Of a stretch of DNA of 64,000 nucleotides, positions 23,414 to 60,516 are shown piece after piece. Numbering within the stretch: position 1 is the stretch's first letter; every line of letters begins with the position of its first letter. The stretch covers positions 1 to 64,000 of the forward strand of contig JARFNK010000020.1 of NCBI GenBank assembly GCA_029167225.1, read 5' to 3'. The translations under genes and the position numbers were made by a program. The DNA is from Sphingobium arseniciresistens. Its GTDB lineage: Bacteria > Pseudomonadota > Alphaproteobacteria > Sphingomonadales > Sphingomonadaceae. The notes beneath the pieces are model-generated. The model was given only the letters and a program-made list of their open reading frames with translations. It did no database searches and was not told the origin of the DNA.

Positions 23414-23839
23414 CTATGATCCCTTGGCGGGTTTCTTCCGCGTCGTTCCCGTCACCTTGGCCGCAGACCGGGCCTTTGCCTTCACCGGCTTCGCCACCTC
23501 GATCCCCGTCGGCCTGGGCGCAGTCGTGCCGCCCGCCGAAACCACCGGCGGCTTGCCGGCGTCGAGGATCGGCTGCAACGTCTTGCGGGTCGATTCAAGC
23601 ACCGTCTCGGCCTGTTTCCGGTCTGCCTTCAGCGCGACGATCTGGGCGTCGATGCGCGCGTTCTGATCGGCGCGCAAGGTTTCCAGCGCGGTGATCCGCG
23701 CGCCGATGCTGTCGACATGCGACTGCTGCAGCGCCAGCGGGCGGGACAGCATCTGCGCATCGATCTTGGTGCCGGAAAGCAGCTTGTCGACCTCCTTCGT
23801 GAGTTCTTCCCTGCCTTTCAGCAGACTGTCGATCGTCAT
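23414..23839 (-). CDS. Coiled-coil protein at the end of the eCIS operon
   Basis: 141 residues. Residues 1-90 are hydrophilic with heptad patterns (VDSIGARITALETLRADQNARIDAQIV is a long helix), and the last 45 are lysine/alanine-rich and probably disordered (KPVKAKARSAAKVTGTTRKKPAKGS). No known domain was recognised. It lies 11 bp after the beta-helix gene, so it belongs to the injection-system operon. It could be a chaperone for the fibre, a trimerising stalk or a DNA-/membrane-adhering accessory. All of these are guesses. Confidence 0.6.
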   Translation of the reverse strand: MTIDSLLKGREELTKEVDKLLSGTKIDAQMLSRPLALQQSHVDSIGARITALETLRADQNARIDAQIVALKADRKQAETVLESTRKTLQPILDAGKPPVVSAGGTTAPRPTGIEVAKPVKAKARSAAKVTGTTRKKPAKGS

Positions 23840-23850
23840 AATTCCCTCCT

Positions 23851-26800
23851 TCAGGCAATCTGGTTGAATGCGTTTTCGGGCGCCGGAAATGGCGCGGGCC
23901 TGCCGATGTTCGGGCCGAACGACACATTACCGATGAACGGCCCGGGCATCCCGTGGAAATGATAGGAAGGCAGTGCCCGCGTGTTCGCCTTCACATGGTT
24001 GCCCGACACGGTGCATCGGCGGCCCACCAGGGAGACGGTGGCGTCCTGCCGCTGGTCGTTCACCGGCCCGCTGATGTGCATGCAGTAATTGTCGTCGAAC
24101 TGGACCCGCTCGAAGCGCATGCGGATCGTGTCGGTCAGGTCCGTCTGCAACAGCTCGACAAGCGCGCTGGCGCCCGCGCCGATGAACTTGTTGTGCGCGA
24201 TCTGCGTCCCGAATCCGAAGACGATGGCCTCCGCGCCCAGATTGATCTGCATCTCCAGCAGGCCACGCATCCGAAGCGCCCGGTCCTCTGCCGTGACGGG
24301 CCTGGACGCGGGATCGGTATAGGTGACAAGGTTGCCCTCGACCCGCGCCTCCAGCACGAACTCCGCTACGATGCCGCGCGCGACAGGGGCCGCACCCTGT
24401 CCGCCGGGCGGCGGCAGGCCGATGTCGACGACCTCGTTGCCCTGCACATGCAGCTCACCATAGACGAACAGCGCGCCGATGCCGATCGCGACGGGCAGCG
24501 TCCAGCCGCAGCGGTTGATCCTGTTGTCGACCAGCTCGGTACGCCCCGTCGATCCCAGGATGATGACGGCATAGCTGGACATCTCCCTCAGGCGGTTGCC
24601 CGTCAGCTTGGGCTCGGCGGAATTGTTGACCATGATGCCGACCTGTCCGCTCTCGATCCGGTTGCCGGTGAGGCTCGCCCGGTCGCAGTCATTGCAATAG
24701 AGGGCGGCCACGGGGCCGATCAGATGATTGTCGGCGATCACGCAGTCATTGGCATTCCCGGCGATGATGCCGATGCCCATTGTTTCACCGATGGCACCCA
24801 GCATGTTGCCGGCGATGCGCGCATGGCTGACGCCGAGCAGGCCGATGCCGTTCACCCGCCCGGAGATGATGTTGTTGGCGATGATGATCCGTTCAAGCGG
24901 CAGGAACTGGCCATCCTGCTCATTGCCCGCGAAGATCGCGCTGTTGATGCCGCCCTCGCCCGCGACGGTGATGATATTGCCTTCCACCACACTGCCGCTG
25001 CCGCACGCGCGGATGCCCACGACATTGCCACCCGGAAGGGCGATGCGGTTGCCCTCTATGATGGCGGATTCGGCGGCGACGTCGATCGCGCGGCCGATAA
25101 TGCCCTCCGCTTCGGTCAGGCCGACCAGATTGCCGCGCACGACCGATCCAGCCGCCAGCGACGCCGGCACGTCATCGGGCCGGTCGTTGATGAGGATGCC
25201 CCGCACGGCGCGCCTGATCTCATTATTCTCGATCAGGACGCCGCGCACAGTCTGTTCCACCAAAATGCCGATCGTCGCGGGGGTGTTCCCGCCCGGACGG
25301 CCCATGGCGAACTGGCTGTTGGTGATCCGTCCCTCGATGCAGCGCTCCGACAGCCACACGCCGTTTGCGAAGCCGGAGAACACGCAATCGTCCACGGTCA
25401 GATCCCGCGCGCCGCGCGCCAGGATGGCGATGCCGGCGCTGATGTCGCGCTCCTCCGCCTCGAACACGCAGTGGGAAATGACCGGGCGGTCGGCAAGGCC
25501 GACGGTGATAAGCGGCGCCGCCCCTCTTTGCTGGCGCAAGCGGACATCATGGATGCGGACGCCCTCGATACCGCCATTGCCGATCACGAATGCGCCGCCG
25601 GCCAGTGCGACGACCGTTGCGCCAAGGCTTTCGCCATGAATTTCCACATTATCCCGCCCGATCTCGACCGGATCGCGCAGCGTGTGGATACCGGACTTGA
25701 GGCATATGCAGCCGCCCGCATCGGGCAGCGCATCGACCGCCGCCTGGATATCGTCGCCGGGCCGCACGATAATCGTGCAGCAGCTTTCCGCCACGACCGG
25801 GCGCGGCCGGCAATCCTCGACGATGGGCGCCACCCACCCGGCCGCATTGGCGTCGACCACGGCGAGGCGGCAATAATGATGGTGGATGCCGAAGGGCGCC
25901 GCCTGCACCAGTTCCTCGACCTGCCGGCCCGCCGTGCGCGCGGTGAAGATCCAATAGTCGCCGAGGCGGAAGGTACCGCCGGCAAGCTGATCGAAGCTGA
26001 CCTCGACGCCATCGCCCAATTGCACCCATGTCCCCGCTGCCGGCACCGGGACCACGCCGGGAGAAGCGGCGGCGGTCAGGTCGGTCAGCACATTGCCGGC
26101 GCTGTCGCGGACAAGCCCGGCCTGATCCCATTTGCGCACGCGGGGGTGAAATTGCGGGTCGGCGGCATTGCCTCCACCGCCGAGCAATGCGACGGTGCCC
26201 GCCGGCAACGGCGCCGTCAGCGTGACCGTCTGCTGCGCGTCGTTCACCGCCTGGACCTGCGCCATGACGCCGGGCTGGCCCTCCAGTTCGCGCCGATCGT
26301 CGGTGATCTCCACCCAGTCGCCCGGATTGAACCGCATCACGTCGTCGCGCGCGACCCGCGCAACCCGCAGGATGTTCGCCGCCGGCACCGCCAGCACGGG
26401 ACTTGCGACGGTGGCGTTATACATCGCCCATTTGAAGCGAAAGGCCCCCGCGGCCGACTGATCGTGGATCTCGACCCGGTAGGTCCGGTTCTCAAGGCCG
26501 GTATAGCCGCTGCCCGGCGGCAGCAGGCAGGGGTCGGTCTGGGGCGGGCCGATATGTGCGCGGCTCGACAGGCGCCCGGTGGACGGGGCGGTCAGCGCAT
26601 TCCATCCGGGCAGTTCGCCATCGGGGGTGCTGCAATCGGCATTGCCGACATTGGGCAGCGTGCGGACCTGCCAGACCGTCTGGACGCGGCCGGTGGTGTC
26701 CACGCCGATGGCGGGCTCGATCAACGAGGGGTCTTCGATCGGCGTGACCGTCCGTTGCCAGACGTCGAGCAGCACGACATGCCGGCCGGCCGCCGGCGCA

Positions 26801-27171
26801 CCGGGCGCAAAACCCGGCCGATAGGGCTGCTGGTCGAAGCGAATGGCTGCCGTACCGGTGGTCTCCGCCAGCACCGGATCGAAGGCATTCGGCGCGCCGC
26901 CATGATTTTCCGCCTGCAGGCCGTCGACATAGAGGCGGCCCGGATTGATCACCAGCTGGCCGGCCACCACATCGATCAGGAAGCTGTCCGGTAATGTGAC
27001 GGGCACATGGACACGGCCCGATTGATCCAGCGTGCCGCTGCGCCAGCGGCGATCCTGAATGGCCCAGCCTTCGGTCCCGTCTGCGTCAAGCGCGACCCGG
27101 CCTTGCTGCTCGATGGGCGCGGAGTAGTTCTTGCGGGGAACGAAGCTGACGCGGCTGATATCGACCGTCAT
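23851..27171 (-). CDS. Right-handed beta-helix protein with DUF6519-like N-terminus (putative eCIS fibre/adhesin)
   Basis: 1106 residues. The start MTVDISRVSFVPRKNYSAPI and QQGRVALDADGTE matches a family seen in phage-tail-like clusters (DUF6519, named from memory). After about residue 450, more than twenty short repeats of beta-helix type occur (for example VIENNEIRRAVRGILI, IIANNIISGRVNGIGLLG, IADNHLIGPVAALYC), like NosD/pectate-lyase-type helices. No lyase catalytic set was identified. Such helices in tail-like particles often form fibres or bind or cleave glycans. It is encoded after the gpI-like baseplate gene, where tail fibres usually are. A best guess is the target-recognition part of the particle. 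Confidence 0.7.
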   Translation of the reverse strand: MTVDISRVSFVPRKNYSAPIEQQGRVALDADGTEGWAIQDRRWRSGTLDQSGRVHVPVTLPDSFLIDVVAGQLVINPGRLYVDGLQAENHGGAPNAFDPVLAETTGTAAIRFDQQPYRPGFAPGAPAAGRHVVLLDVWQRTVTPIEDPSLIEPAIGVDTTGRVQTVWQVRTLPNVGNADCSTPDGELPGWNALTAPSTGRLSSRAHIGPPQTDPCLLPPGSGYTGLENRTYRVEIHDQSAAGAFRFKWAMYNATVASPVLAVPAANILRVARVARDDVMRFNPGDWVEITDDRRELEGQPGVMAQVQAVNDAQQTVTLTAPLPAGTVALLGGGGNAADPQFHPRVRKWDQAGLVRDSAGNVLTDLTAAASPGVVPVPAAGTWVQLGDGVEVSFDQLAGGTFRLGDYWIFTARTAGRQVEELVQAAPFGIHHHYCRLAVVDANAAGWVAPIVEDCRPRPVVAESCCTIIVRPGDDIQAAVDALPDAGGCICLKSGIHTLRDPVEIGRDNVEIHGESLGATVVALAGGAFVIGNGGIEGVRIHDVRLRQQRGAAPLITVGLADRPVISHCVFEAEERDISAGIAILARGARDLTVDDCVFSGFANGVWLSERCIEGRITNSQFAMGRPGGNTPATIGILVEQTVRGVLIENNEIRRAVRGILINDRPDDVPASLAAGSVVRGNLVGLTEAEGIIGRAIDVAAESAIIEGNRIALPGGNVVGIRACGSGSVVEGNIITVAGEGGINSAIFAGNEQDGQFLPLERIIIANNIISGRVNGIGLLGVSHARIAGNMLGAIGETMGIGIIAGNANDCVIADNHLIGPVAALYCNDCDRASLTGNRIESGQVGIMVNNSAEPKLTGNRLREMSSYAVIILGSTGRTELVDNRINRCGWTLPVAIGIGALFVYGELHVQGNEVVDIGLPPPGGQGAAPVARGIVAEFVLEARVEGNLVTYTDPASRPVTAEDRALRMRGLLEMQINLGAEAIVFGFGTQIAHNKFIGAGASALVELLQTDLTDTIRMRFERVQFDDNYCMHISGPVNDQRQDATVSLVGRRCTVSGNHVKANTRALPSYHFHGMPGPFIGNVSFGPNIGRPAPFPAPENAFNQIA

Positions 27172-27183
27172 TGCGGTTACTCC

Positions 27184-29268
27184 TCAAGTCTCGAAAATCA
27201 GGCCCGCCTCGAGCCCGACGCCCAGATATTCGTCCAGCCGGATGCGCAGGTTCGCCTCGCGCTGGGGCTGAAACAGCAGGTGGGTCATGCCCATTTCGCT
27301 TTCGTCGTCGGCGCCCGTGCGGATCTCGCGAGGGGCCGCGTGCAACAGCTGGCCATAGCCGGGGTCGCCATAGCGCAGGCTCGTCCAGCTGGGCACGACG
27401 CGGTCGATGGCGGCCATGGCGATGGCATCCAGCTCCGGTTGCGAAACGAGCGGATTGATCTGTTTTCGGGCATTCTGCGCCTCGGCGATGGCGAGGCTGG
27501 GCTGGCAGCGATAGCGGCGCGGCGCGCGCGATCCGCTGGGCACGAAGCTGAAGCGGACGCAGCCGATCTGCCGGCGCTCCGCCCGCACCGGCGCCGTCCA
27601 TGCATCGCCCGCCGCCAGCGCGCTGCTGAAGATACTGTTGGAGACGAGCATCATGGCGGCGGCATGGACCTTTCCCACGAAGGTCGTGGCGATCGCGCGG
27701 AGCACCGGGCCCTCGCCCGTGCCCGCAGGCCCGGCGAACGCGACATTCTCCGGTGCGTTCGCATCGACGATGGAATCGATGATGCTCAGCTGCACCGAGG
27801 GGTGGGCATGAATCGCGCCGAGAATGCAGCGCTCGATCTCCACCGTGACATCGCGCTGCTCGATGACGAGCGCCGGCGCGGCCGGTTGGGCCGGGCTTCC
27901 ATCCGCGTTCAGGCTGCGCCCCGGCACGATCGTACAATGGCGCAGCCTCAGCATCCGCAGCGCATTGCCGGCCGCCGGGATGCGGATGGCGCCGCCCGAC
28001 ACGACAAGGCCGTTCAGCGTCACTTCCGACCCATCGCCGCCGGTGATGACAAGGTCTCCGGGCAGGCTAACCAGCGGGCGCTGGCCATTGTCCGCCCGCA
28101 GTTCGATCCGCCGGCCGGGATCGGGGTTGATCGCGACGGCGCCCGCATAGGTCAGGCTGTCGCTGATCTCCACGATCCCGCCAGCCTCGACCTGATCGAG
28201 TTCAAGCTGCAGTGCGGCGCCGGCTGCCACCTGCCGCACCGGGCCGAGATCGGCGAGGAAGCTGTCCGCCCGCTCATAATTTCCGCCGCCAAGATCGGCG
28301 CAGAAGCCATAGTGGAAATCCACGATGACCGATCGCGGCGCCGGCAGGTTGGGCGGGAAGTTGATGCGGCCGAGCACCGGGTCGATCGCCACCACATTCT
28401 GGGGCGCATGCGCCCATGCTCCGCCGCCCGCATCGGCCAGATTGCAGCCACGCACATTCGCAACCGGCACCTCGACACCGTCCGCGACGATCCGCAGCGC
28501 GCGCGGGTAATAATCTCCGATAAAGGCCGCCAGCCGCCGCCGGCCGATCGGTTCCGGCACGTTGAGCGGCCCGGCCAGCGACGCGATCTCGGTTTCGGGC
28601 ACCGGCGGATTGAACAGCTGGCAATTGGCACCGAGCGGACTGAAGAACCAGCGGCGCGGATCGCCCGCAAGCGGCGCCGCCGTCGCGCCCCGGATCGGAT
28701 AGGCGGTGAGGCGCCACAGGAACAGGCCGATATTGCGGATATTGTGCCGCCCCTCGCCGATCGGGATGCGCCCGACCTCTGGATGATGCGCGATCGTGTC
28801 GAAGGCGCCGTTCAGTCGTTCCAGCGGCTCCCAGTGGCGCAGGTCCGGGCTGCGCCGGTTGAACAGGCGGGCATGGTCCATATGCTGATTGGTCGCCAGG
28901 ATCTGGAAGAACTCCTTCGCATGGGCGACCCAGCCGGTGACGTCGCGCGCCAGCTGTTCCAGCATGACGACCGTGCCCTTGCGGCGGCGCAGGGCAATGG
29001 TGTTGGCGATCTCGGCGCGGCGATTGGCGACCGTTCCCGCACCATGGATGGTGCGATAACCGACCAGATCACCGATATAGGGCAGCACCCAATCAGCGCA
29101 GGTCTCGACAAAGCCATTGTCGTAGAGCTGCTCGACATCCTCCTCAAGCACGCGCGCCTGCTCGGCCAGCACGGCAAGGAACTGGCGCAGCGGATAGCCC
29201 TGTTCGGCATCGCGCACGCGGTGGACGGACGGGAGCAGGTCGTAGAGGGCGGGCGCGTTCCAGCTCAT
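27184..29268 (-). CDS. Phage tail protein I-like baseplate protein of the eCIS
   Basis: 694 residues, far longer than phage P2 gpI. The first ~250 residues (LYDLLPSVHRVRDAEQGYPLRQ, LAEQARVLEEDVEQLYDN, WVLPYIGDLVGY) match the gpI/Afp12-like baseplate arm seen in contractile injection systems. The rest is beta-rich with several IEIS/ITGGDGSEVTLNGLVVSGG-type strands, possibly another small beta-helix. It would attach fibres to the wedge. It starts with a 4-bp overlap on the preceding gpJ-like gene, and the beta-helix gene follows 12 bp later. Confidence 0.75.
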   Translation of the reverse strand: MSWNAPALYDLLPSVHRVRDAEQGYPLRQFLAVLAEQARVLEEDVEQLYDNGFVETCADWVLPYIGDLVGYRTIHGAGTVANRRAEIANTIALRRRKGTVVMLEQLARDVTGWVAHAKEFFQILATNQHMDHARLFNRRSPDLRHWEPLERLNGAFDTIAHHPEVGRIPIGEGRHNIRNIGLFLWRLTAYPIRGATAAPLAGDPRRWFFSPLGANCQLFNPPVPETEIASLAGPLNVPEPIGRRRLAAFIGDYYPRALRIVADGVEVPVANVRGCNLADAGGGAWAHAPQNVVAIDPVLGRINFPPNLPAPRSVIVDFHYGFCADLGGGNYERADSFLADLGPVRQVAAGAALQLELDQVEAGGIVEISDSLTYAGAVAINPDPGRRIELRADNGQRPLVSLPGDLVITGGDGSEVTLNGLVVSGGAIRIPAAGNALRMLRLRHCTIVPGRSLNADGSPAQPAAPALVIEQRDVTVEIERCILGAIHAHPSVQLSIIDSIVDANAPENVAFAGPAGTGEGPVLRAIATTFVGKVHAAAMMLVSNSIFSSALAAGDAWTAPVRAERRQIGCVRFSFVPSGSRAPRRYRCQPSLAIAEAQNARKQINPLVSQPELDAIAMAAIDRVVPSWTSLRYGDPGYGQLLHAAPREIRTGADDESEMGMTHLLFQPQREANLRIRLDEYLGVGLEAGLIFET

Positions 29269-31985
29269 GACATCAGCTCCAGTGCATCGAGTGGGCCGGG
29301 ATCGAGGATCAGCAGTTCAGCCGGAATCAGCGTGCCGTTCGCGGCGCGCACGGGCGGATCTGCGGGCAGCCGGGGCGCGTAGCCTGGCGTCGCACCCCGA
29401 TAGAGGCGGTTGATACGGACGGCGTCCACCCCGGCGACGGCATGGACGCAGGCGAGGATCGCACTGGCCGACACTGGATCGACCAGCGCCCGTGCATCGA
29501 AGGAGAAGGCCTTGCGCACCGCTGCCTCGACGGCGGGCAGCACGACCTCCGGCAGATGCGCGGCATTGACCTTGATCGCGAGGCCGAGCCGGAACAGCGC
29601 CTTGCGATAATTACCGATGGCAAAGCGGCTATAGGGATCGCCCGCATCGCGCACCGCACCCACGAGCGCCTCGTGCAGCGCGCCGGTATCCGGCACGGAC
29701 GCGCCACCCTCGCCGGCGACCGTCACGAAGATCAGCTCCCCGCCCACATCCCACAACGGCAGCGCCATGGCCTTGGCGATGCCGGCATAGGCCCGCGCGA
29801 AATCCTCATAGTCGAGCAGCGACACCGTGCGATCGAGCGTCCGCACCGTCAGCGCGACATTCGCGCGAACGCTGTCGGCCGGCTGCGGATCGGCGCCCCC
29901 ATCCGAAGGTAACGGATTGTCGACCCCGGCAAGCCCCAGCGGACGGGTCATCGCCTGATTGAGCTGACGTGCGCCGACCCGGCCGACAAGCCCCAGCCCC
30001 CGGCGATAGCGCGCCCGGACATTGTCCGATCCGGTCGGCAGCCGCGCGCCGTTGACGCCGTCGCCAAAGGTAACGATCATATGCCCCTCGGCATCGGTGC
30101 GCGTCACATAGACACGGTCGAACGGCCGCGCGTCGAGAAAGTCCGGCACGAGGCGCCAGAGCACATCGTTCACGCGGACCTCCAGCGTGGGCGCTGCGCC
30201 GCCGGGCACCGCCGCGCTCAAATGGGTCTGCGGCGCCTGCTTGGTGACGAAGCTCTGGTTGGCGATGCGGCTGTCACCGCTGCCCAGCACCTCGGCCACG
30301 GTCTCGCCATGCGTCGCCTGCGCCACATTGGCATTGATCCGCACCGACCCGCGCACATAGCGATCGGCCAGATCGGCATCGAGGCGGATGCGCGTCCCGC
30401 CCGAGGGCGTGAAGACATGCTCGACGGCGGCGATCTTGCGCGCTTCCGAGACCGCGCCCGCGCCCCTGCCCCGCGCCCGGCCGGTCAGGATGATCGGCTG
30501 TCCGGTCTGCAGGCCGGGGAACCAGCCGTCCAGCGGGATGAACGCAGCGCCGCCATCTTCCACCAGGCTCGTCACCGGCGTCGGCGCCAGTGGCAGGATC
30601 TCGCTGTCGCAATAGACGATCGCCCGGCGGATCGAGAAATTCGCGAAGCCCGCAGACGTGCCGAGCGTCAGCACCGTCGTCTTGCCCGAGATGGTGAAGG
30701 CGTTCTTCGTTTCCTCGCTGACGCCGCTTACCGAATAGAAGCTCCAGCCCGCGCCATCGCGCAGGACGGCGTAACCGGAAGACCTCGCGCCCTCCACGAC
30801 CGTATCGAGATAGACCTTGTTGGAGCCGTCGGCGAGCAGGCTGAGGGTGCCCTGGTCCGCCCAACTGGTCGCCGCAGTGCCGAAGAACGGCCCGTTCTTG
30901 ACGCCATTGGCCTTCACCACGCCATTGTCGACGGTGTAGGTGACGATCTGGCCGGTCAGCGATTCCGGCAGGGTGTTGAGTGCCGGCGCCGTGTTGCCGA
31001 ACGTCCCCGCCCTGCGCCGGAACACCAGCACCTGCCGGGGGATCGGCAAGGCGGCGGCTTGCCATGGCGCAAACACCTGATCCTCCTCCACGTCATGCTC
31101 GGCATAGAGGCGGGTCATGTCCTCGGCGCTCAGCGTATCGCCCGACACGAGCTGCGCGGCGGGCGAAAAACTGTTCACGCCGATGGGAAAGGCGGGGATG
31201 AACGCGGGCAACGGATTGGGCGCGCCGCCGACCCGCTCGATCGTCGCCTCGGTCAGGTCGAAGGCGTCGGGGTCCAGCACCTTGTTGGCCGTGACCGGCT
31301 TTACGGCGCGGATCACCGCGAAGACATTCTGCCCGTCATCCGCCGTGAACCACACGCCGTCGCCCGGCTTGAGCCCGGTATTGACGCCCATGAACGAAAG
31401 CAGTGTTGCGGATGCCGGTAGCGGGTGCCGCTCCCGCTGGCGCGGGCGGATGCCGTTCCACGCCAGCCGCGCGGTGATGCTCTTGCCGGTTTCATAGGTC
31501 GCGGGCAGCTGGTCCTGCTCCGGCGTGCTCATCACCTTGGCGCCGGCCGGGATCACCGCACTCTTGGGCGATCCGGGCGCATCGCTCATCATGAAGGCCA
31601 GCATCGCGCTCGCGGCGACCCCGGGCCCTGGCCGATAGCCGACCAGCCGGGCCATCTCGCGGATCGATAGCGGATCGCGCGCGGTGGCGAGATAGGCCTC
31701 GTTCGCGAGCCGGTCGGTATAGAAGGACACCACCTCGCCCGCCGCCGCCCATGCGTCGATCAGCGCGATCGAGAAATCATCGGTGTTGCGCGTCCGCAAT
31801 TCGGAGAGCTTGCCCAGTGCCGAGGAGGACAGCATGGCCAGCTGCGTGCGACGGAAGGCGGCGCCATTGCCGAGCCGCGCCGATATTTCCGGCAGTCCGG
31901 GCCGATTCGCGGGCGCGCGGGGCACACCCTGGGTCGTGCCGGCACAGCCTGAACAGACGTCCATGTTCATGTCGCTCATGGCCAT
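29265..31985 (-). CDS. Baseplate wedge protein, gpJ-like (second copy), eCIS
   Basis: 906 residues. It has the hallmarks of putative baseplate assembly proteins (gpJ family): FSIALIDAWAAAGEVVSFYTDRLANEAYLATA near the N-terminus, GDGVNGARLPTGSDNVRARYRRGLGLVGRVG in the centre, and TVSLLDYEDFARAYAGIAKAMAL near the C-terminus. The extreme N-terminus carries a CSGC pair. In T4 and Afp terms it corresponds to gp6/Afp11, the wedge ring around the spike. It lies 8 bp after the other gpJ-like gene. Two different gpJ-like proteins in one cluster imply a heteromeric wedge. Confidence 0.8.
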   Translation of the reverse strand: MAMSDMNMDVCSGCAGTTQGVPRAPANRPGLPEISARLGNGAAFRRTQLAMLSSSALGKLSELRTRNTDDFSIALIDAWAAAGEVVSFYTDRLANEAYLATARDPLSIREMARLVGYRPGPGVAASAMLAFMMSDAPGSPKSAVIPAGAKVMSTPEQDQLPATYETGKSITARLAWNGIRPRQRERHPLPASATLLSFMGVNTGLKPGDGVWFTADDGQNVFAVIRAVKPVTANKVLDPDAFDLTEATIERVGGAPNPLPAFIPAFPIGVNSFSPAAQLVSGDTLSAEDMTRLYAEHDVEEDQVFAPWQAAALPIPRQVLVFRRRAGTFGNTAPALNTLPESLTGQIVTYTVDNGVVKANGVKNGPFFGTAATSWADQGTLSLLADGSNKVYLDTVVEGARSSGYAVLRDGAGWSFYSVSGVSEETKNAFTISGKTTVLTLGTSAGFANFSIRRAIVYCDSEILPLAPTPVTSLVEDGGAAFIPLDGWFPGLQTGQPIILTGRARGRGAGAVSEARKIAAVEHVFTPSGGTRIRLDADLADRYVRGSVRINANVAQATHGETVAEVLGSGDSRIANQSFVTKQAPQTHLSAAVPGGAAPTLEVRVNDVLWRLVPDFLDARPFDRVYVTRTDAEGHMIVTFGDGVNGARLPTGSDNVRARYRRGLGLVGRVGARQLNQAMTRPLGLAGVDNPLPSDGGADPQPADSVRANVALTVRTLDRTVSLLDYEDFARAYAGIAKAMALPLWDVGGELIFVTVAGEGGASVPDTGALHEALVGAVRDAGDPYSRFAIGNYRKALFRLGLAIKVNAAHLPEVVLPAVEAAVRKAFSFDARALVDPVSASAILACVHAVAGVDAVRINRLYRGATPGYAPRLPADPPVRAANGTLIPAELLILDPGPLDALELMS

Positions 31986-31993
31986 GCCCTCCC

Positions 31994-36804: not shown

Positions 36805-37153
36805 CGGCGCTGCTCCTTCCCGCCTTGCCAATGGCAATCTTAAGCCCGCGCCCCACCGGCTCCACCAGCGACTGGAACCCCTCGCCATTGGCATCGCACA
36901 GCCGCCAGGCCTGGGTGGAGTCGCCAAAATTATCGGCCGCGATGATGTCGATCCGCTCGCCCTGGCGCACGGCATGGACCCCAATCTGCTGCAGGTCATC
37001 GGCCTGCGGGATGAAGCGCCGTTGCAGATAGGTGCGCTGGCTCCCGTCCGGCAGGGTGATCTGCTGCAGGCCGAGGCCATGATAGCGGCTGGTGGGCGGA
37101 TAGGTGGTGGCCTCCAGCCCCGGCGCGGCCAGCAGGGTGGCGATGTCGGTCAT
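36797..37153 (-). CDS. LysM/gpX-like small baseplate protein, eCIS
   Basis: 118 residues. The second half (IGVHAVRQGERIDIIAADNFGDSTQAWRLCDAN) has the LysM-like pattern seen in phage tail protein X and in the C-terminal part of Afp7. It probably clamps the hub to the tube initiator rather than binding peptidoglycan. It overlaps both neighbours by 4-8 bp. In Afp7-like proteins the tube and LysM parts are often joined; here they are separate ORFs. Confidence 0.65.
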   Translation of the reverse strand: MTDIATLLAAPGLEATTYPPTSRYHGLGLQQITLPDGSQRTYLQRRFIPQADDLQQIGVHAVRQGERIDIIAADNFGDSTQAWRLCDANGEGFQSLVEPVGRGLKIAIGKAGRSSAGA

Positions 37154-37794: not shown

Positions 37795-37801
37795 CGCGCC
37801 C

Positions 37802-39976: not shown

Positions 39977-40161
39977 GGCCTGTCTCCCCGTACAGAATCC
40001 CGCACGGCACCGCGCACGGCATCGTCCACCGCCATCCGGTCGGGCGTGCCCTCATAGGCACCCAGCCGCTCGGCAAGGCGTTCGCGGAAGCCGGCCTCGT
40101 CAAAGCCGCGCCCGACGAGGCGGATGGCGTCGATCCGCACGATGGTCCGCCGCCGGCTCAT
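39973..40161 (-). CDS. Small basic hypothetical protein in the eCIS operon
   Basis: 62 residues, starting at the ATG at 40161, which overlaps the ATPase stop (ATGA), and ending with a stop that overlaps the DUF4157 ATG (ATGA). The sequence is arginine-rich (SRRRTIVRIDAIRLVGRGFD) with a predicted helix (GFRERLAERLGAYEG). The double ATGA overlap argues strongly that it is translated. It might be a loading adaptor or chaperone for the DUF4157 protein; no family was recognised. Confidence 0.6.
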   Translation of the reverse strand: MSRRRTIVRIDAIRLVGRGFDEAGFRERLAERLGAYEGTPDRMAVDDAVRGAVRDSVRGDRP

Positions 40162-42026
40162 GCCTGGCCCTTCGCAAGCTGGAGGTGCATGGGCATCTGC
40201 TCGGTCTTCGCGCTTTCGGTCGCGATCGCGCGCAGCAGGTGGGCAGAACCGATCTTGCCGCCCTCGGCCGCCGCCAGGAAGGCAGCATTGAGCGCGATGT
40301 TGCGGATGCTGCCGCCCGCGACGGAGAGCCGGCCCAGCTCGTCCCAATTGGGCGCATCGACCAGTTGGTCGCTCGGCAACGCCCGGCGCCACAGCTCCGC
40401 GCGCAGTTGCCGGTCCGGGAAAGGGAAGTGGATGATATAGCGGATGCGCCGGAGGAAGGCGTCGTCCAGCCCGCCCTTCTGGTTGGTGGTCAGGATAGCG
40501 AGGCCGCGATAGCGCTCCATCCGCTGGAGCAGGTAGCTCACCTCCATATTGGCGTAGCGATCATGGCTGTCGCGTACTTCGCTGCGCTTGCCGAAGATCG
40601 CGTCCGCCTCGTCGAACAACAGCACGCTGCCGCCCGCCTCGGCACCGGCAAAGACCCTGTCGAGATTCTTGCTGGTCTCGCCGATATATTTGCTGACTAC
40701 CTGAGAGAGGTCGACATGCAGCAGGTCCAGCCTCAGCGCGCCCGCCAGCGCCTCGGCCGCCGTCGTCTTCCCCGCGCCGCTCGGTCCGGAGAACAGGGCA
40801 GTAATGCCAAGGCCCCGCCCGCTGGCGCCCTCCATCCCCCAGCGGCCATAGACGGTCGCCTGATGCACGACCTGATCCTCCAGTGCGTCCAGCGACGCGC
40901 GCTGCGCGGGGGGCAGGACGAGATCGTCGAGCCCCAGTTTCGGCATGATCCGTGTGACATTGCCGCCAAGGTCGCGACGCGCGCGGATCCGTGCCTCGTT
41001 CCAGGCGGCCTCGATCCGGCGAGGGCCTTCCGCAAGCGAGCGCGCTTCGGCAGCAGCATGGAGCAGGTCGGCGGGATCGAGGGAGAACTGGTAGGCGAGC
41101 CGGGCGATCCCCTCTCCCTCTTCCGGTACTTCCAACGCGCGCGCCCAAAGCGACTGCCGGGCCGCATAGCTGAGCGCAGGCAATTCGAAGAGCGCGACGG
41201 GCCGGGAGAGGTCGGCGGTTCCCCCGGTCAGGACTAATGGCGGCTCGAACTGTTCGGCAAAGCCCTCGACCGGAGCGAAAGCCATGTCCGGCCCGGCACC
41301 CGTCACGGGCAGGTCGATCACCGGAAGCGCGCCGCAGAGCAGGGTTTCACGCTCCCACAGCCGCGCCAGTGCGCGCTGCTTCTCGCCTCCGGGGGGGATG
41401 TCACCGGCATTGACGAGCCAGGGTGACAGACCAAGAGCGAGCGCCGCGCGGCGCGCGACCATAAGGCGGCCCATGCGATCGACGCCGCGCAGCAGGATCA
41501 CGGGCGCGTCCCGTGCGCCGCGCAGGCGGCTGGCGATCCCCTGCGCGATCTCCTCCCAGCTTGCGGGCAACATGTCCGGCGTGGTGAGCGGCTTGGCCCC
41601 GCGCGCCGCGCTGCTGCAGCTGTCAGACAGGCCGGCGAGCCAGTCACACAGCCAGGGGTCGATCGACAGCGGCGCTGCGAGCCAGCTCCCGGCGCTCGAC
41701 CAGTTGAGCAGCGACCAGCGCTGGAGCGCTGCGTCTGGGGCAAAGGCATCCCAACTGCCCCCCTCGATCCGCGCCATCGCCAGGGCCGGGGTAAGCCCAC
41801 CTTCCGCGCCCAGCGCGACCGCAATCCGGGGGTCGAGGACAACCGCAGCCGCCATCAGCACAAGATCTATCTCGAAGGGGCTGAGCGAGAAGCGCTGCTG
41901 CAGGATGGCGATGCGCGTGCCAGCTTCCGGTTCGTTAGCGGCCGGCGCAGCCTCTCCACGCCAGCGATGCGCTGCACTGGCAATCGCCCCGATCAGGGCG
42001 GCGCGGCTGTCTGCACGCCCGCTCAC
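40158..42026 (-). CDS. AAA+ ATPase of the eCIS (Afp15-like)
   Basis: 622 residues from a GTG at 42026 that overlaps the terminator gene's stop (GTGA); the longer frame up to 42416 is a shadow of that gene and is rejected. The N-terminal 400 residues form a degenerate ATPase-like/winged part. The C-terminal AAA+ module has Walker A GPSGAGKT at 414-421, Walker B VLLFDEAD at about 468-475, sensor TTN near 513 and arginine finger RRIR near 526. An Afp15-like ATPase is a hallmark of eCIS and is absent from phages and T6SS bodies. It is thought to help assembly or cargo loading. Confidence 0.9.
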   Translation of the reverse strand: MSGRADSRAALIGAIASAAHRWRGEAAPAANEPEAGTRIAILQQRFSLSPFEIDLVLMAAAVVLDPRIAVALGAEGGLTPALAMARIEGGSWDAFAPDAALQRWSLLNWSSAGSWLAAPLSIDPWLCDWLAGLSDSCSSAARGAKPLTTPDMLPASWEEIAQGIASRLRGARDAPVILLRGVDRMGRLMVARRAALALGLSPWLVNAGDIPPGGEKQRALARLWERETLLCGALPVIDLPVTGAGPDMAFAPVEGFAEQFEPPLVLTGGTADLSRPVALFELPALSYAARQSLWARALEVPEEGEGIARLAYQFSLDPADLLHAAAEARSLAEGPRRIEAAWNEARIRARRDLGGNVTRIMPKLGLDDLVLPPAQRASLDALEDQVVHQATVYGRWGMEGASGRGLGITALFSGPSGAGKTTAAEALAGALRLDLLHVDLSQVVSKYIGETSKNLDRVFAGAEAGGSVLLFDEADAIFGKRSEVRDSHDRYANMEVSYLLQRMERYRGLAILTTNQKGGLDDAFLRRIRYIIHFPFPDRQLRAELWRRALPSDQLVDAPNWDELGRLSVAGGSIRNIALNAAFLAAAEGGKIGSAHLLRAIATESAKTEQMPMHLQLAKGQA

Positions 42027-43318
42027 GCCGGCACCGTGATGAATTGCGTGGGATCGAACACCGGCGGGACGGCGAGCCGGTCGATCAGCCAGCTGTCTAC
42101 GCCGTCGATGCGCAGCCGCGCGGCCTGGCTGCCCGGCTGCAGCCGCTCGAAGCGGAAGCGCAACTGGTTGCCAGCCACCGCCAGGTCGAGCGCCGTCGCC
42201 TCGCGCCCGCCAATGGTGAGCGTCGCGAACTGGCCGGGGCGGACATTGGGGACGAGTTGAAGATCGATCGTCACGCTCTGGTCTCCCGCGCGGGCCATGG
42301 CGGCAGGCGGCAAGGTCATGCGCGGCGCGATCGCGACGCCCAGCCCGTTGGTGCGGCGCGGCGAAGGCTCTCCGGCACGCTGCACGTCCAGCTCGACCGT
42401 GAACGGCCCGGCACACCAGGCGGCGGGCGCATTGGGGATGGTCACGCGCACCCGGTCATGCGCGACATCGGCTGCCGCGACCGGTACCACGATGGGCGCG
42501 GCAAGCCGGGCGCTGGTGAAGCGCGCCGTCACCGGATTGCCATCCAGATGATGGCCGCGCAGGGTGATCGCCTCGCCCAGCCGCACGCTCGGCTGCTCGG
42601 CCGGCAGGATGACGGCAGTGATCCCCGGATAGGGCGGCACGAGATCGGGCTGGACGTCGACGCCGCGATTGTCCGGGCCGAGGGTCAGCACCGGCAGCGG
42701 CCTGACGGCGGGATCGCGCCGCTCGATAATGACGACGCTCGCCATATAGGTCGCCGCGCTACGCAGGTTCGTCTGGCAGGCCGTCCACAGGCGGGATTGT
42801 TCGTCCAGCGACATGTAGACCGGCGTGATCCGCACCTGCTCGAGCTGGTCGGCCAGGAAGGTCTGCCCCAGCGACTGGAGTGAAGGCGGCAGGTCGCCGC
42901 CGATCGCGGGCATCGCGTCGAGCGCCGTGCGGATCTCGGCCCGGCTGATGACGGGATGCTCATGCAGGATCTGCATCGCATAGCCGAGCAGGATCTCGCC
43001 ATGCAGGTCGGCGCTGCCATGGGCGCTGATCAGATAATGGAGATCCAGCGCCAGCGGCGTGTTGGCGACCCGTCGGCCGGCCGGATCACGCGTCGGCAGG
43101 AATTCGTTGACCAGCCCCAAATTGGGGCTGACGCCGTGGAGGAAGATGTTGAGGGTCGAGTCCGCCTCGGCGCGCAGCCCCTCGGTAATGTCCGGCGGCC
43201 GCGCCCGCACGTTGACATTGCCGCCCAACGTGCCGGAGACGTCGGCATCGACGAGCCCGTCGTTCAGGATATCGCGCAGGATCTGCGTCACCCCGGCAAT
43301 GGCAAGCGCGCTGCTCAT
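42023..43318 (-). CDS. DUF4255 (Pvc16/Afp16-like) tail terminator, eCIS
   Basis: 431 residues. The first 190 match DUF4255: LAIAGVTQILRDILND, TLNIFLHGVSPNLGLVN, LALDLHYLISAHG and LLGYAMQILHEHPVISR. The Afp16/Pvc16 family caps the end of tube and sheath and fixes particle length. The remaining ~240 residues form two or three beta-sandwich-like segments (VRLGEAITLRGHHLDGNPVT looks Ig/IPT-like), longer than the minimal family and possibly surface exposed. It overlaps both neighbours by 4 bp. Confidence 0.85.
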   Translation of the reverse strand: MSSALAIAGVTQILRDILNDGLVDADVSGTLGGNVNVRARPPDITEGLRAEADSTLNIFLHGVSPNLGLVNEFLPTRDPAGRRVANTPLALDLHYLISAHGSADLHGEILLGYAMQILHEHPVISRAEIRTALDAMPAIGGDLPPSLQSLGQTFLADQLEQVRITPVYMSLDEQSRLWTACQTNLRSAATYMASVVIIERRDPAVRPLPVLTLGPDNRGVDVQPDLVPPYPGITAVILPAEQPSVRLGEAITLRGHHLDGNPVTARFTSARLAAPIVVPVAAADVAHDRVRVTIPNAPAAWCAGPFTVELDVQRAGEPSPRRTNGLGVAIAPRMTLPPAAMARAGDQSVTIDLQLVPNVRPGQFATLTIGGREATALDLAVAGNQLRFRFERLQPGSQAARLRIDGVDSWLIDRLAVPPVFDPTQFITVPA

Positions 43319-44025
43319 CGCCGCCCTGCCCTGCGATCGGCGAGATAGGAGGACAGGGTTACGGTCCGCTCGCGCCGCATCGGCGCCGGCCCCGCTCCAG
43401 GCTGCATCGGGGGCACGAGTTCGATACGGCCGATTTCGATGATGAGGGTTTCACTTTCGTCCTCACCGCTGTCTGGATCGGCGGAGGCGGGATTTGGCCG
43501 AGAGGGTGTTGACGAGCCAGCCTGTTGAGATTGAGAAGGCTCCCCTTCGCCCTGAATGGGCGCGGACGGGAATGTCGGCGCGGCAGGCACGGGCCTCATC
43601 GCTACGGTGGCTTCGACCTTTGGTCCGTTCAACCCTTGGATCGGAGTTTCGCCAAGGGAGGCGGGCTTCAGCGGCTTTATGGGATGGTCCTCCCCCCGTC
43701 CCGATGGCTCCCCCCCTGTCGCGAGGAAGGCAGGCGATTGCAGCTCAGGCGTCTGACGGAGCATGGCAGGCTGCTGCGACACGGCGACCTGCGCCGAAGG
43801 ACTGGCGCGTGCCGGCGTGGGGCCATGTTCATCCACATCTGCCGAGATTGCGCGGCGGGCCTGCACCGGGCGATCTTCCACCAGATGCTCCTCCACCACC
43901 TCGCCGGCCCAGTCGGAATCCTCGCCAGCCGCCACCGCCGCGGGCTGCGCCGGCGCACGCAGGCCCGGTTCGCCCGAGGCATCGCCGGCGACGCGCGCGA
44001 TCAGCCTGTCGAGCACGCCGCTCAT
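43315..44025 (-). CDS. Mostly disordered hypothetical protein in the eCIS operon
   Basis: 236 residues from the ATG at 44025, overlapping the zinc-ribbon gene's stop. It opens with a short amphipathic helix (SGVLDRLIARVAG), then about 160 residues rich in P, A, S, E and Q with no fold visible, then a beta/acidic block (DESETLIIEIGRIELVPPM) and a basic end (RTVTLSSYLADRRAGRR). The ordered ends with a flexible middle suggest a linker between two particle parts. No family was recognised. Its place between the zinc-ribbon and terminator genes is the only functional clue. Confidence 0.6.
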   Translation of the reverse strand: MSGVLDRLIARVAGDASGEPGLRAPAQPAAVAAGEDSDWAGEVVEEHLVEDRPVQARRAISADVDEHGPTPARASPSAQVAVSQQPAMLRQTPELQSPAFLATGGEPSGRGEDHPIKPLKPASLGETPIQGLNGPKVEATVAMRPVPAAPTFPSAPIQGEGEPSQSQQAGSSTPSRPNPASADPDSGEDESETLIIEIGRIELVPPMQPGAGPAPMRRERTVTLSSYLADRRAGRR

Positions 44026-44714
44026 CCCATCACCATGTCGACATAGGAGGCGCGGCGGCGCTCCGGCAGGGCAAGGATCGCGTCCTCGCTCCATCCATAG
44101 GCGCGGGCGAGCAGATGCACCTGCGTCAGCAAATTGCGTGCGCGCGTCGCCATCCGATCCCACAGAAATGCGGCGGCGTCGAAGCTGACCTGCTGGTCGG
44201 TCCCGCATTCCGGGCAGGACGTGGCGATCACGGGATCGAGCAGCGGATCGGCGGCGACCAGCGCCTGCCCGACCCGCTCGACATCGCCGGGTGTCAGCGG
44301 TGCGCCTGCCTGATGCGCAAGGCAGGATTGCGCCAGCGCCCCAGCCGGGTCGCCGGCCTGCTGGCTGGCAATGATGTCACGGGTCGTCGGCAAGCGGAGA
44401 TTGTGCGTGTCCCCGCTCGCCAGCGTGACACTTGCCTCACCCACCGGACCACAGGCCTCGGCGAATGCGAGAGCGTCGAAGCCGATCTCGATAATCGCGC
44501 CGCAAGCAGCGCAATCCGCTACTGCCTCGACATCCCGCCCGAAGCCTTCTGCCAGCACCGCGATGAACCGCCGGTCGCGTTCGCCGACCGACATGTTTTC
44601 GGCCGCATCGGCGTCACCCAGCAGGGCGAGCAGCAGCCGTGCCCGCTCCGGCGCGGTCGCGGTTCGGCCACCCTCCCAGGCGGCGATGACGTGCTGGTCG
44701 GACAGGAACGACAT
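44022..44714 (-). CDS. Zinc-ribbon-like baseplate/assembly protein, eCIS
   Basis: 230 residues. Two CxxC pairs (CAACG near residue 69 and CPECG near 168) form a likely split zinc ribbon around an alpha-helical centre. The overall shape resembles gp26/T4-baseplate-like proteins encoded next to tube genes in phage-tail-like clusters, but I could not confirm the family by eye. It starts 19 bp after the tube gene and overlaps the disordered-protein gene by 4 bp. An assembly-chaperone role is a guess. Confidence 0.6.
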   Translation of the reverse strand: MSFLSDQHVIAAWEGGRTATAPERARLLLALLGDADAAENMSVGERDRRFIAVLAEGFGRDVEAVADCAACGAIIEIGFDALAFAEACGPVGEASVTLASGDTHNLRLPTTRDIIASQQAGDPAGALAQSCLAHQAGAPLTPGDVERVGQALVAADPLLDPVIATSCPECGTDQQVSFDAAAFLWDRMATRARNLLTQVHLLARAYGWSEDAILALPERRRASYVDMVMG

Positions 44715-44733
44715 GGGACGGCAGTCCTTTGGT

Positions 44734-45261
44734 TCAGCGCGGCTCGGTGTAGCTGGGCTCGGCTGGTTCCTTCACATCGACATCACGCTCCCAGCCCTCA
44801 TTTTCGAGCTTCAGCGTCTGGATGGCGATGGCGCTGCCCTTCGCGTCCAGTTCCGGCAGGGCCTGGAATTCGGACACCCAGCAGCGGAACAGGCGGTAGG
44901 CGATGGCAAGCTGCCCGGCCTCGTTATACACTTCCAGCACGAGATCCTTGCGGAAGTCCTTAAGCGACACTTCCGCGCCCAGGCCGGAACCGAAGTTCCA
45001 CACCTTGTTCGCCCATTGCTCGAAATGCTTGTCATGGGTAACGCCGCGTTCCAGCGTGACCGCCTCGAACTTGCTCTGCCCCGGCGAACGCCGCACGCTG
45101 CTCGGGTCGCCGCCCTCGCGATGCTCGACGACTTCGGTGGTGCGCTTGAGTGCGCTGACCTTGGACACGCCGGCGATATAAGTGCCGCCGACCTCCTTCA
45201 CCCGGAATTTATAGCTTTTATAGGGATCGTAGCGTTGCGCGTTGACCGTGAACTGAGCCAT
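44734..45261 (-). CDS. Inner tube protein (gp19/Afp1-like), eCIS
   Basis: 175 residues. YKSYKFRVKEVGGTYIAGVSKVSALKRTTEVVEHREGG, ERGVTHDKHFEQWANKVW and FRKDLVLEVYNEAGQLAIAYRLFRCWVSEFQAL are typical of T4-like tail tube proteins, including Afp1/Afp5 and Hcp-related tubes. Hexameric rings of it stack into the channel inside the sheath. It is the only tube gene in the cluster, whereas Afp carries two. It lies 12 bp after the sheath gene. Confidence 0.88.
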   Translation of the reverse strand: MAQFTVNAQRYDPYKSYKFRVKEVGGTYIAGVSKVSALKRTTEVVEHREGGDPSSVRRSPGQSKFEAVTLERGVTHDKHFEQWANKVWNFGSGLGAEVSLKDFRKDLVLEVYNEAGQLAIAYRLFRCWVSEFQALPELDAKGSAIAIQTLKLENEGWERDVDVKEPAEPSYTEPR

Positions 45262-45273
45262 GTCGCCTTCCCT

Positions 45274-47247
45274 TTATGCCTGCGCCTGGCCAGCGAGAAG
45301 CTGGAGGCTGATGATGACGAATTCGGCGGGCTTGAGCGGGGCGAAGCCGATGAACACATTGACGATGCCCGCATTGATGTCGTCCTGCGTCGTCGTCTCA
45401 GCGTCGCACTTGACCAGATAGGCCTGCCGCGGGGAGGCACCCTGGAAGGCGCCCTGCCGGAAGAGCTGCTGCATGAAGGAGCCCGCCGCCGCGCGGATCT
45501 GTGCCCAGAGCGGCTCGTCATTGGGTTCGAACACCACCCATTGCAATCCCCGGAACAGCGATTCCTCCACGAACAGCGCGAGCCGTCGCACCGGCGTATA
45601 TTTCCAGTCGGATGCGAGGATATCCGCCCCGTCGAGCGTGCGCGCCCCCCATACCACGCTGCCGACCACGTCGAAGTTGCGCAGGGCATTGAGGCCGAGC
45701 GGATTGAGCTGGCCATGCTCGGGATCGGTCAGGGTATATTCGAGACCTGACACGCCGGAGAGCGTCGCCTCTATCCCGGCGGGTGCCTTCCAAACGCCGC
45801 GCGCGCCGTCGGTCCGGGCGTAGATGCCCGCCACGGTGCCGCTCGACCCGATCGTCCGCAGGCGGTTGCCGTTCAGCGGATCGGGCACCTGCACGCGGGG
45901 GAAATAGGCCGCCGCGTTGCGGCTGCGCAGGCCGTTGCTCGCGACCTCGCCCAGCCAGGTCTGTGCCGCGTCGAGGCTGGCGGTGTTGGGCGCGACGTCG
46001 ATCAGGGCGAAGGCCCTGCGCTCGACGCAATAGGCGATCGCGCCGCTCATCACCGCCGCCAGATCCGTCACGTCGCCCAATGTCGCCGCCTCGGGGATCA
46101 TCAGGATGTTGAAGAGGTTGACGTCCTCCAGCGCGAACAGCCCGGTCTTGTTCCCGCGCACGCCCAGCAGGGCGGCGGAGGTCAGCGCGCCGGCATCGGT
46201 GCCGGCCGTTGCCGCGCTCAGGAAACCGGCGGGCGCCGCAGTGCTGCCCAGAGCATATTGCTGGACATTCTCCACCGCATTGTCACCGGCCCGCAGTGAC
46301 AATGTCGCGGCAAGATCACCCACATTGTCGTCGAACGTCATGATGAGGTCGGGCGCGTAATTGGGGCCGGAGCGACCGGCGAGTACCCGCAGCCGCCCGT
46401 CGCCCGTCACCTGCACGGTCGCCCCGGCGAAGAGGGGGTCGGCGGGACGACCGGCACGCAGCGCGCCTTCCAGCACGCCGCGCGCCTCGGGCAGAGAGGT
46501 GAGCGCGGCCGCGAGCACGGGCACCACGATCTGGGATGTCGTGCCGTCGATCGTGACATCGAGCGTATTGGTCAGCTGCATGCCGGCGAAACCGCCGACA
46601 TTCACGACATCGCTGACGGTGCCGGTGGCGACCGGCCGCGCGCGGGTCCATCCGGCATCGCGCGACAGCTGGATCATCCGTGATCCCGCGTTCACGATGT
46701 CGATCGCAAAGCTCGGGCCGTCGTCCATCAGCAGGTTGCGGAAGGTTTCCGACCGCACCACGATTTCTCGCCCATTTTCGGCGCGCACCTCGTTGACCGT
46801 CAGGTTGAAACCATTGGCGGCGTCGCTCGCCTCATGATCGACATCGATGCGGATATTGTCACCCCAGCTGCCGGGATCACCAACGCTCGTGCCGCGCACC
46901 TGCCGGCCTGCGGTGGCCAGCAACGCCTCCGCCGCGCCGCCGGCGTCATTGTGGTTGAGCGTGGCATCGGCCGGCGCGCCGCCCGGCGCGACCCGCACCA
47001 CCACCAGTTGCGATCCGCCGTTCAGGAAGAATTGCTTCACCTGATAGCTCGCCTCAGAGGCGGCGCTGAGCCCCCCGAAATCGCGTTCGAACTCACCGGG
47101 GTTGAACACGGTCAAGGCGGTGTCCGAGGGACCACGCGCAAAGCCGCCGACGATCGCCCCGATGGACGTCGCGACGCCTATGATGGTGCGGATGCCGCTG
47201 GGAAGTTCCTGGACGTAGACACCGGGATAGGTCGGGGAAACGGGCAT
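45274..47247 (-). CDS. Contractile tail sheath protein, eCIS
   Basis: 657 residues from the ATG at 47247 (GGAG 8 bases upstream). It begins PVSPTYPGVYVQELPSGIRTI, the conserved sheath N-terminus, and has GARTLDGADILASDWKYTPVRRLALFVEESLFRGLQWVVFEPND and LWAQIRAAAGSFMQQLFRQGAFQG at the C-terminus, the interlocking region. The middle ~300 residues are a variable beta-rich insertion, larger than in minimal sheaths. It is the only sheath gene, against three in Afp and PVC. It contracts to drive the tube into a target. Confidence 0.92.
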   Translation of the reverse strand: MPVSPTYPGVYVQELPSGIRTIIGVATSIGAIVGGFARGPSDTALTVFNPGEFERDFGGLSAASEASYQVKQFFLNGGSQLVVVRVAPGGAPADATLNHNDAGGAAEALLATAGRQVRGTSVGDPGSWGDNIRIDVDHEASDAANGFNLTVNEVRAENGREIVVRSETFRNLLMDDGPSFAIDIVNAGSRMIQLSRDAGWTRARPVATGTVSDVVNVGGFAGMQLTNTLDVTIDGTTSQIVVPVLAAALTSLPEARGVLEGALRAGRPADPLFAGATVQVTGDGRLRVLAGRSGPNYAPDLIMTFDDNVGDLAATLSLRAGDNAVENVQQYALGSTAAPAGFLSAATAGTDAGALTSAALLGVRGNKTGLFALEDVNLFNILMIPEAATLGDVTDLAAVMSGAIAYCVERRAFALIDVAPNTASLDAAQTWLGEVASNGLRSRNAAAYFPRVQVPDPLNGNRLRTIGSSGTVAGIYARTDGARGVWKAPAGIEATLSGVSGLEYTLTDPEHGQLNPLGLNALRNFDVVGSVVWGARTLDGADILASDWKYTPVRRLALFVEESLFRGLQWVVFEPNDEPLWAQIRAAAGSFMQQLFRQGAFQGASPRQAYLVKCDAETTTQDDINAGIVNVFIGFAPLKPAEFVIISLQLLAGQAQA

Positions 47248-60494: not shown

Positions 60495-60516
60495 TAAATT
60501 CTCCTTAGAAAGATCG

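Follow-up and report, generated by a model that had tools for sequence, protein, structure and literature searches.

The DNA considered here, referred to as the window, comprises positions 1 to 64,000 of contig JARFNK010000020.1 from the Sphingobium arseniciresistens assembly GCA_029167225.1. On its minus strand, from position 47247 down to 23414, it carries an operon of 19 open frames, numbered here g1 to g19 in reading order, that is 99.9% coding and almost certainly encodes a contractile injection system (CIS) of the extracellular contractile injection system (eCIS) superfamily. Such a system had been proposed in a preliminary description of the DNA, and the profile searches of all 19 proteins against Pfam and NCBIfam with curated cut-offs bear this out. 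The description had also stated that nearly all genes are joined by overlaps of 1-8 bp; the number of genes and the common strand are as claimed, but "nearly all" was too strong, as overlaps of 1-8 bases occur at 12 of the 18 junctions, while 7-19 bases separate the genes at the remaining six.

The operon begins with the contractile sheath g1 (45274-47247, 657 amino acids (aa)), which matches PF17482 over its cut-off (1.3e-9) and PF04984 below it, followed by g2 (44734-45261, 175 aa; PF06841 4.7e-40, TIGR02241 1.9e-38), the single inner tube gene. The next protein, g3 (44022-44714, 230 aa), is T4_baseplate-like with two CxxC pairs (PF12322 at 6.7e-4, under cut-off, and a weak DUF6760 match), and we presume that it could be a tail assembly chaperone. 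The Pro-rich, linker-like g4 (43315-44025, 236 aa) has no family match and ends in an SL..Y(L) motif. It is followed by g5, the cap or tail terminator (42023-43318, 431 aa; Pvc16_N/DUF4255, PF14065 2.3e-40), by the AAA+ ATPase g6 (40158-42026, 622 aa; PF00004 2.5e-24, WHD 4.5e-10), by the small protein g7 (39973-40161, 62 aa) and by g8 (37802-39976, 724 aa), an eCIS_core (DUF4157) protein with a HELAH motif (PF13699 2.2e-16).

The second half of the operon encodes mostly baseplate and spike components. It starts with the CIS_tube-like putative tube initiator g9 (37150-37794, 214 aa; PF19266 3.8e-5, under cut-off), which matches another CIS_tube protein in a profile comparison at 1.4e-4 with a probability of 52. 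The small baseplate protein g10 (36797-37153, 118 aa) has homologues at the same place and no family over cut-off, and may be gpX/LysM-like. The presumed hub g11 (35674-36804, 376 aa) is assigned by position and has no family match. The spike is formed by the gpV/gp5-like g12 (35159-35677, 172 aa; Phage_base_V, PF04717 1.2e-19) and the PAAR-like tip g13 (34836-35159, 107 aa; PF05488 0.0042, under cut-off), the baseplate wedge by the gp25 protein g14 (34471-34839, 122 aa; PF04965 5.9e-18). Two baseplate J proteins follow, g15 (31994-34474, 826 aa; TIGR02243 2e-83) and g16 (29265-31985, 906 aa; TIGR02243 4.1e-55), and then the gpI-like adaptor g17 (27184-29268, 694 aa), which has a long C-terminal part and matches Tail_P2_I (0.0043) and TIGR02242 (1.8e-5) below their cut-offs. 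The last two genes encode the tail fibre g18 (23851-27171, 1106 aa; DUF6519, PF20129 2.1e-34, and Beta_helix 1e-20) and the small coiled-coil-like g19 (23414-23839, 141 aa), which shows a 32% match in a Paracoccus locus (5.8e-6) and no family over cut-off.

Over their cut-offs are thus PF17482, PF06841, Pvc16_N, AAA, eCIS_core, Phage_base_V, gp25, TIGR02243 (twice), DUF6519 and Beta_helix. The tube, sheath, gp25, Baseplate_J, DUF4255, AAA and DUF4157 domains, which belong to the eCIS superfamily core list given in PMC8213781, are all present; of the spike parts on that list, PAAR stays below its cut-off and GPD has no match. The part list of the preliminary description therefore holds for sheath, tube, gp25, gpJ, gpV, DUF4255 cap and ATPase, in weaker form for gpI and PAAR, and finds no support for gpD. 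Its statement that capsid, terminase, integrase and lysis genes are lacking inside the operon is confirmed, with none of these families among the Pfam and NCBIfam matches of the 19 proteins. Within the whole assembly, matches to sheath (PF17482), TIGR02243 and eCIS_core are confined to the operon. Taken as a whole, the operon looks like an intact and seemingly complete CIS of a kind that has already been described in many bacteria.

Cargo slot and fibre

The interval between the ATPase and g9, i.e. the tape-measure position, is the cargo slot of these operons. It was surveyed in 89 loci (80 from named genomes, another eight from further genomes, and the window), of which 58 with the ATPase and g9 labels in order were kept and 31 were dropped. 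By an automatic gene pick, which also underlies the counts of small genes given below and which took as cargo a BLAST label or an HExxH motif in a frame of at least 300 aa, 53 of the 58 loci contain one to three DUF4157/HExxH proteins in the slot (85 in total, 299-2417 aa). When six slot proteins were checked with Pfam, eCIS_core was over cut-off in five and absent in one (genome G441). The slot offers a simple rule for locating cargo in such operons, and the Streptomyces davawensis CIS is described with a DUF4157 effector at the corresponding place (PMC11126660).

In the window the slot is occupied by g8, the only eCIS_core match in the genome and a probable cargo protein. Its eCIS_core part is followed by a helical domain (residues ~165-280), a beta region and a low-complexity tail. 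The helical domain is predicted with confidence in an otherwise poor model (mean predicted local distance difference test score, pLDDT, 44.3) and is matched in seven other loci. Only two Paracoccus proteins align with g8 from end to end, at 30-31% identity as against 55-57% for gpJ, and the tail, which is charged here, is Thr-rich in these counterparts. A search with the predicted fold gave no match at E <= 0.001. As slot proteins vary in number and size and may be missing, g8 is unlikely to act as a length ruler, and the variable content of the slot argues generally against a slot protein that sets the particle length. No tape-measure family is found among the Pfam and NCBIfam matches of g8, and no transmembrane part was found in it (maximum 19-residue hydropathy 0.73). 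The particles of the Streptomyces coelicolor CIS are reported to be identical in length, though the cluster contains no tape measure gene (PMC12237407).

Two small genes recur at fixed places. At the g7 place, directly after the ATPase, a frame of 62-109 aa was picked in 53 of the 58 loci, in most of them with an I.LHID.L.L-type start that a few lack, although homology was not checked one by one. At the g4 place, 19 of 22 frames end in the SL..Y(L)-type motif, compared to a mean of 0.23 from shuffled ends, a control that overstates the significance, because the motif was chosen after viewing the ends and the 22 sequences are related (one, from locus L171, is a near-repeat of that of genome G383). 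In the CIS literature cited here we met no description of g4- or g7-type proteins, with no search having been aimed at either. A far-reaching model can be built on these elements, in which length would be set without a tape measure, the position of which would be a free cargo slot (0 to 3 DUF4157/HExxH proteins, 299-2417 aa), g4 with its SL..Y(L) peptide and the chaperone-like g3 would scaffold tube assembly, g7 would hand the DUF4157 cargo to the ATPase, and a new family of cargo proteins would be typified by g8; in this full form, we regard the model as improbable.

Two slot contents of relatives can be mentioned at this point. In a sphingomonad genome (G196), the slot protein (L110:2785-6036) shows by eye an HNH-like stretch after eCIS_core, without a Pfam nuclease match. 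In the Novosphingobium type (L111 of G383, and L171), eCIS_core proteins of 2417 and 453 aa adjoin in the slot, and the shorter one has a weak OmpA-like stretch.

The fibre g18 combines a DUF6519 anchor with a right-handed beta helix. Its predicted model has a mean pLDDT of 87.9 (from an alignment of 38 sequences), and the beta-helix fold matches alginate lyases, mannuronan epimerase and phage tailspikes. These alignments are long and loose, with query-length TM-scores up to 0.22 among the PDB matches listed, and therefore they support a fold class, that of polysaccharide-lyase- or phage-tailspike-like beta helices, and not a ligand; the search against solved structures gave one doubtful match (0.015). 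Compared with 37 relatives, g18 has a mean identity of about 0.42 over residues 1-500 but of only about 0.17 over residues 501-1000, a pattern that would fit a constant anchor joined to a variable binding part. Among the loci of named genomes that hold both J genes and gpI, 68 of 72 contain a fibre homologue. DUF6519 has been described as the fibre anchor eBAP5, in a class with frequent beta-helix ends (PMC12923769), and g18 fits this class: the anchor domain and the beta-helix C-terminal part are shared, as is a Tail_P2_I-type adaptor, which is weak here. In that paper the class is tied to Actinobacteriota, whereas the operon here is alphaproteobacterial, and its main text contains no word beginning with "sphingo".

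Proposed mode of action and its alternatives

Comparison with solved structures places the sheath closest to 8bky, the S. coelicolor CIS (2.5e-68), to 9ezm (2.2e-67), an accession that occurs in a paper on a haloarchaeal type VI secretion system (T6SS; PMC11566945), and to 8bl4 (1.3e-65), followed by the 9qgl sheath (2.3e-47), Pvc2 (2.9e-41), Afp3 (5.9e-41), the thylakoid CIS (1.8e-36) and AlgoCIS (1.6e-34). The gpJ protein g15 matches 9gtp, also from the S. coelicolor CIS, at 9.1e-17, besides two phage gp6 proteins, and nothing else at E <= 0.001; g16 matches 9gtp at 5.3e-5. No solved relatives were found for g5, g9, g11 and g17 at the thresholds used. While the Afp, PVC, AlgoCIS and thylakoid systems share the sheath, cap and ATPase types with the operon, their sheath E-values are at least 27 orders of magnitude weaker than those of the S. 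coelicolor CIS, and they give no gpJ match at E <= 0.001. The S. coelicolor CIS, as described in PMC12237407 and PMC10066040, also has no canonical tape measure gene, but it has two tube genes and, instead of a fibre, CisA, compared to the single tube gene and the fibre g18 found here.

Of the published kinds, the tme-harbouring CIS group (Nagakubo 2024, PMC11126660) comes closest to the operon; this group is reported from Proteobacteria, Chloroflexota and Actinobacteria and forms a clade distant from S. coelicolor. With this group, represented by the S. davawensis CIS, the operon shares the conserved synteny and a DUF4157 protein encoded directly ahead of tube initiator and spike, and in both cases the systems are spread over distant phyla and include a plasmid copy. 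The group has been defined by the relative length of the tme-like frame, an N-terminal DUF4157 and the conserved synteny. In the operon the long frames are g15, g16 and g18 with 826, 906 and 1106 aa, compared to 724 aa for g8, and hydropathy and the profile libraries, though not a comparison with the Tme sequence itself, show neither transmembrane helices nor tape-measure homology in g8. Because g8 is too short and neither a transmembrane nor a nuclease part could be found in it, we do not claim strict membership, while we think that the operon works like the members of this group.

The reading that we favour, with a probability of roughly 0.6, is that of a complete phage-tail-derived CIS belonging to the eCIS superfamily and acting outside its producer; it has the synteny of the tme group, its tape-measure position holds a DUF4157 protein, and its fibre is of the DUF6519/eBAP5 type. 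The present data support the parts and the order in which they lie, most of the families, the fibre fold and the cargo slot, and assembly, loading, release, glycan binding and injection could proceed on this basis as follows. Hub and spike (g9-g13) would join gp25, the two J proteins and the gpI-like adaptor to form the baseplate. The g8 protein would be loaded into the tube lumen via its eCIS_core part, with help from the ATPase g6 and possibly also from the small g7, and tube and sheath would extend up to the cap g5. Particles might then be freed by cell lysis, the fibre g18 may bind a surface glycan, and contraction of the sheath would drive the tube that carries g8 into the target. The presence of a fibre favours release and surface binding and argues for action on other cells.

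Several observations weigh against this reading. The closest solved sheaths come from the cytoplasmic S. coelicolor CIS and a haloarchaeal T6SS, so that the mode of action cannot be read from the sequence. No lysis gene is found among the profile matches of the 19 proteins. A 19-residue hydropathy above 1.6 is reached by five of them (g1, g6, g11, g12 and g16, with the highest value, 2.18, in g11), which makes a membrane anchor possible; g1, g6, g12 and g16 are known structural parts and g11 is the hub by position, and the values of g17, g18 and g19, where an anchor or fibre is expected, are 1.41, 1.52 and 0.39 and thus all below 1.6. The g8 protein is short for a tme-like gene, shows no toxin or nuclease domain among its Pfam and NCBIfam matches and has no confident fold except the helical domain, and five of the 58 surveyed loci contain no DUF4157/HExxH protein in the slot by the same rule. 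Among the machine parts, the PAAR match of g13 is weak, and the data do not show g11 to be gpD: it has no library match, and its hhalign comparison with a Pfam-positive GPD protein gives E = 0.15.

As first alternative, the particle could stay inside the cell, fire under stress and act on its producer, as in the cytoplasmic CIS of the S. coelicolor and Roseiflexus type. The best solved sheath and J matches and the missing lysis gene would agree with this, and the subtype IId systems studied in PMC10066040 and PMC12998442 are described as cytoplasmic. However, the cytoplasmic type has no tail fibre gene; the fibreless S. coelicolor CIS uses the membrane protein CisA (PMC12237407), and at the corresponding place the operon has the DUF6519/beta-helix fibre, as in 68 of the 72 related loci mentioned above. 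We consider cytoplasmic action a real possibility, albeit clearly the less probable one. A T6SS-like CIS that is anchored in the membrane and depends on contact, like that of Halogeometricum, is improbable. It would be in line with 9ezm as second-best solved sheath and with the hydrophobic stretch of g11, but none of the 19 genes encodes the several strong hydrophobic stretches of a six-helix anchor, as far as the scan for maximum hydropathy tells.

A prophage remnant or an ordinary phage-type tailocin can be dismissed, since the relationship of the machine parts to phage tails is limited to partial matches in 320 (sheath), 285 (gpJ) and 45 (ATPase) phage records, with none of 50,697 phage records covering 80% of any of these three proteins, since eCIS_core, Pvc16_N, AAA and DUF6519 are all present, and since no capsid, terminase or integrase turned up in the flanking frames scanned (30 of the 54 on the contig, 10 with Pfam and 20 with PHROGs), although two neighbours do have phage-type matches, a peptidoglycan (PG)-binding protein 15 kb off to endolysin and tail-lysozyme families and the esterase at 53764 to a tail-fibre family besides others. 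Neither the complete-prophage match nor the neighbouring capsid genes that the preliminary description had named as evidence against an eCIS have thus appeared in the phage records and flanking frames searched.

Relatives and distribution

Among the best 80 of 116 relatives that gpJ found in named genomes are Proteobacteria, Cyanobacteria, Bacteroidota, Chloroflexota, archaea and others. The closest of these 80 belong to Paracoccus siganidrum and P. chinensis (L029, L030; 55-57% identity), and in a tree of J1 proteins the window groups with these two loci with a Shimodaira-Hasegawa-like approximate likelihood-ratio support (SH-aLRT) of 100. This tree was built quickly and some of its branches are long; we rely on this grouping only. 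The Paracoccus operons show the same order from g4 to g18; the stretches fetched stop short of sheath and tube.

Plasmids also carry such operons. In the stretch fetched from the Novosphingobium resinovorum plasmid pSA1, typed as conjugative, the operon is present from the tube gene to the fibre gene, and the J1 protein encoded there is nearly the same as in genome G383, from the same family as the window. On a Streptomyces plasmid, the annotated products include sheath, tube, DUF4255, ATP-binding, DUF4157, gpV, gp25, two J and DUF6519 proteins, ordered as in the window; the remaining places hold hypothetical proteins, which were matched by position. In Ensifer megaplasmids, gpJ alone was matched. 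The plasmid copies and the occurrence in several phyla suggest that the operon has spread by transfer, for which the tree alone is no proof.

In the order, Pvc16_N was detected in 26 of 396 genomes, and four markers of the operon type found in the window in eight, including the window. This survey used single 20-kb stretches, and the 26 stretches from the 25 other Pvc16_N genomes divide into seven with all four markers, 15 with a sheath but not all four and four without a sheath match. TIGR02243 is over cut-off in 7 of 385 genomes of the class (15 at E <= 0.001) and in 3 of 94 genomes of the genus (5 at E <= 0.001), i.e. the genome of the window, G441, which has the same operon type on short contigs, and G423. 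The distribution is patchy, and the operon is neither rare nor new in kind. The earlier view that eCIS are sparse in alphaproteobacteria, so that host, target and cargo would be new, is not supported in the light of these counts and of the close relatives in Paracoccus and on a Novosphingobium plasmid. By title, no publication on CIS of sphingomonads was found in the open-licence literature. The operon adds an intact alphaproteobacterial example to a widespread but little studied kind of CIS.

G423 (L155-L156, C1:135382-157212) encodes another kind of CIS. Its genes comprise two sheaths, two tubes, CIS_tube, GPD, gpV, gp25, a single J, Tail_P2_I and a short gene resembling Pvc16_N; neither the BLAST labels nor a scan of ten proteins revealed an AAA ATPase. 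Systems of this type may be among the 15 stretches in the order survey that have a sheath match but lack part of the four markers.

Genomic surroundings

The operon has a GC content of 67.4%, compared to 64.9% in the left and 61.7% in the right flank. The assembly comprises 6.6 Mb with 6.02% contamination, and the 93 other genomes listed for the genus are smaller (the largest 6.2 Mb). A contaminant contig is nevertheless unlikely: both flanks have long matches in congeners (best identity 73-76% in one search and 72-78% in the other), and because of these matches we regard the contig as native to the genus. In the five congeners with both flank matches on one contig (G398, G423, G457, G473 and G474), the two matches are separated by 1.1 to 3.1 Mb, and thus a simple empty site was not observed.

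A perfect 9-base inverted repeat with a 6-base spacer (47462-47485), which lies some 215 bases upstream of g1, is a candidate operator. It occurs at this single place in the 6.6 Mb assembly, even with up to three mismatches allowed, and was not seen upstream of four related operons. Further upstream, a GH53 hydrolase, a GH43-like protein and a TonB receptor are encoded. Downstream and on the same strand as the operon follow a two-component pair and an RND efflux set, assigned by eye from the translations and, for the outer-membrane part, by Pfam. The PHROGs scan of the flanks gave lipase and tail-fibre families for the esterase at 53764, families without known function as well as a weak replication-initiator match for a frame at 67471, and otherwise a dehydrogenase and a transporter.

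The PG-binding and TIGR02594 protein mentioned above (62597-63298) matches, besides the endolysin and tail-lysozyme families, one family filed under head and packaging. It could aid particle release, but nothing ties it to the operon. Close to it, at 58352-62211, a TIR-domain protein lies near a TPR-S/MAP3K_TRAF_bd protein, and the two look like a defence or signalling cassette.

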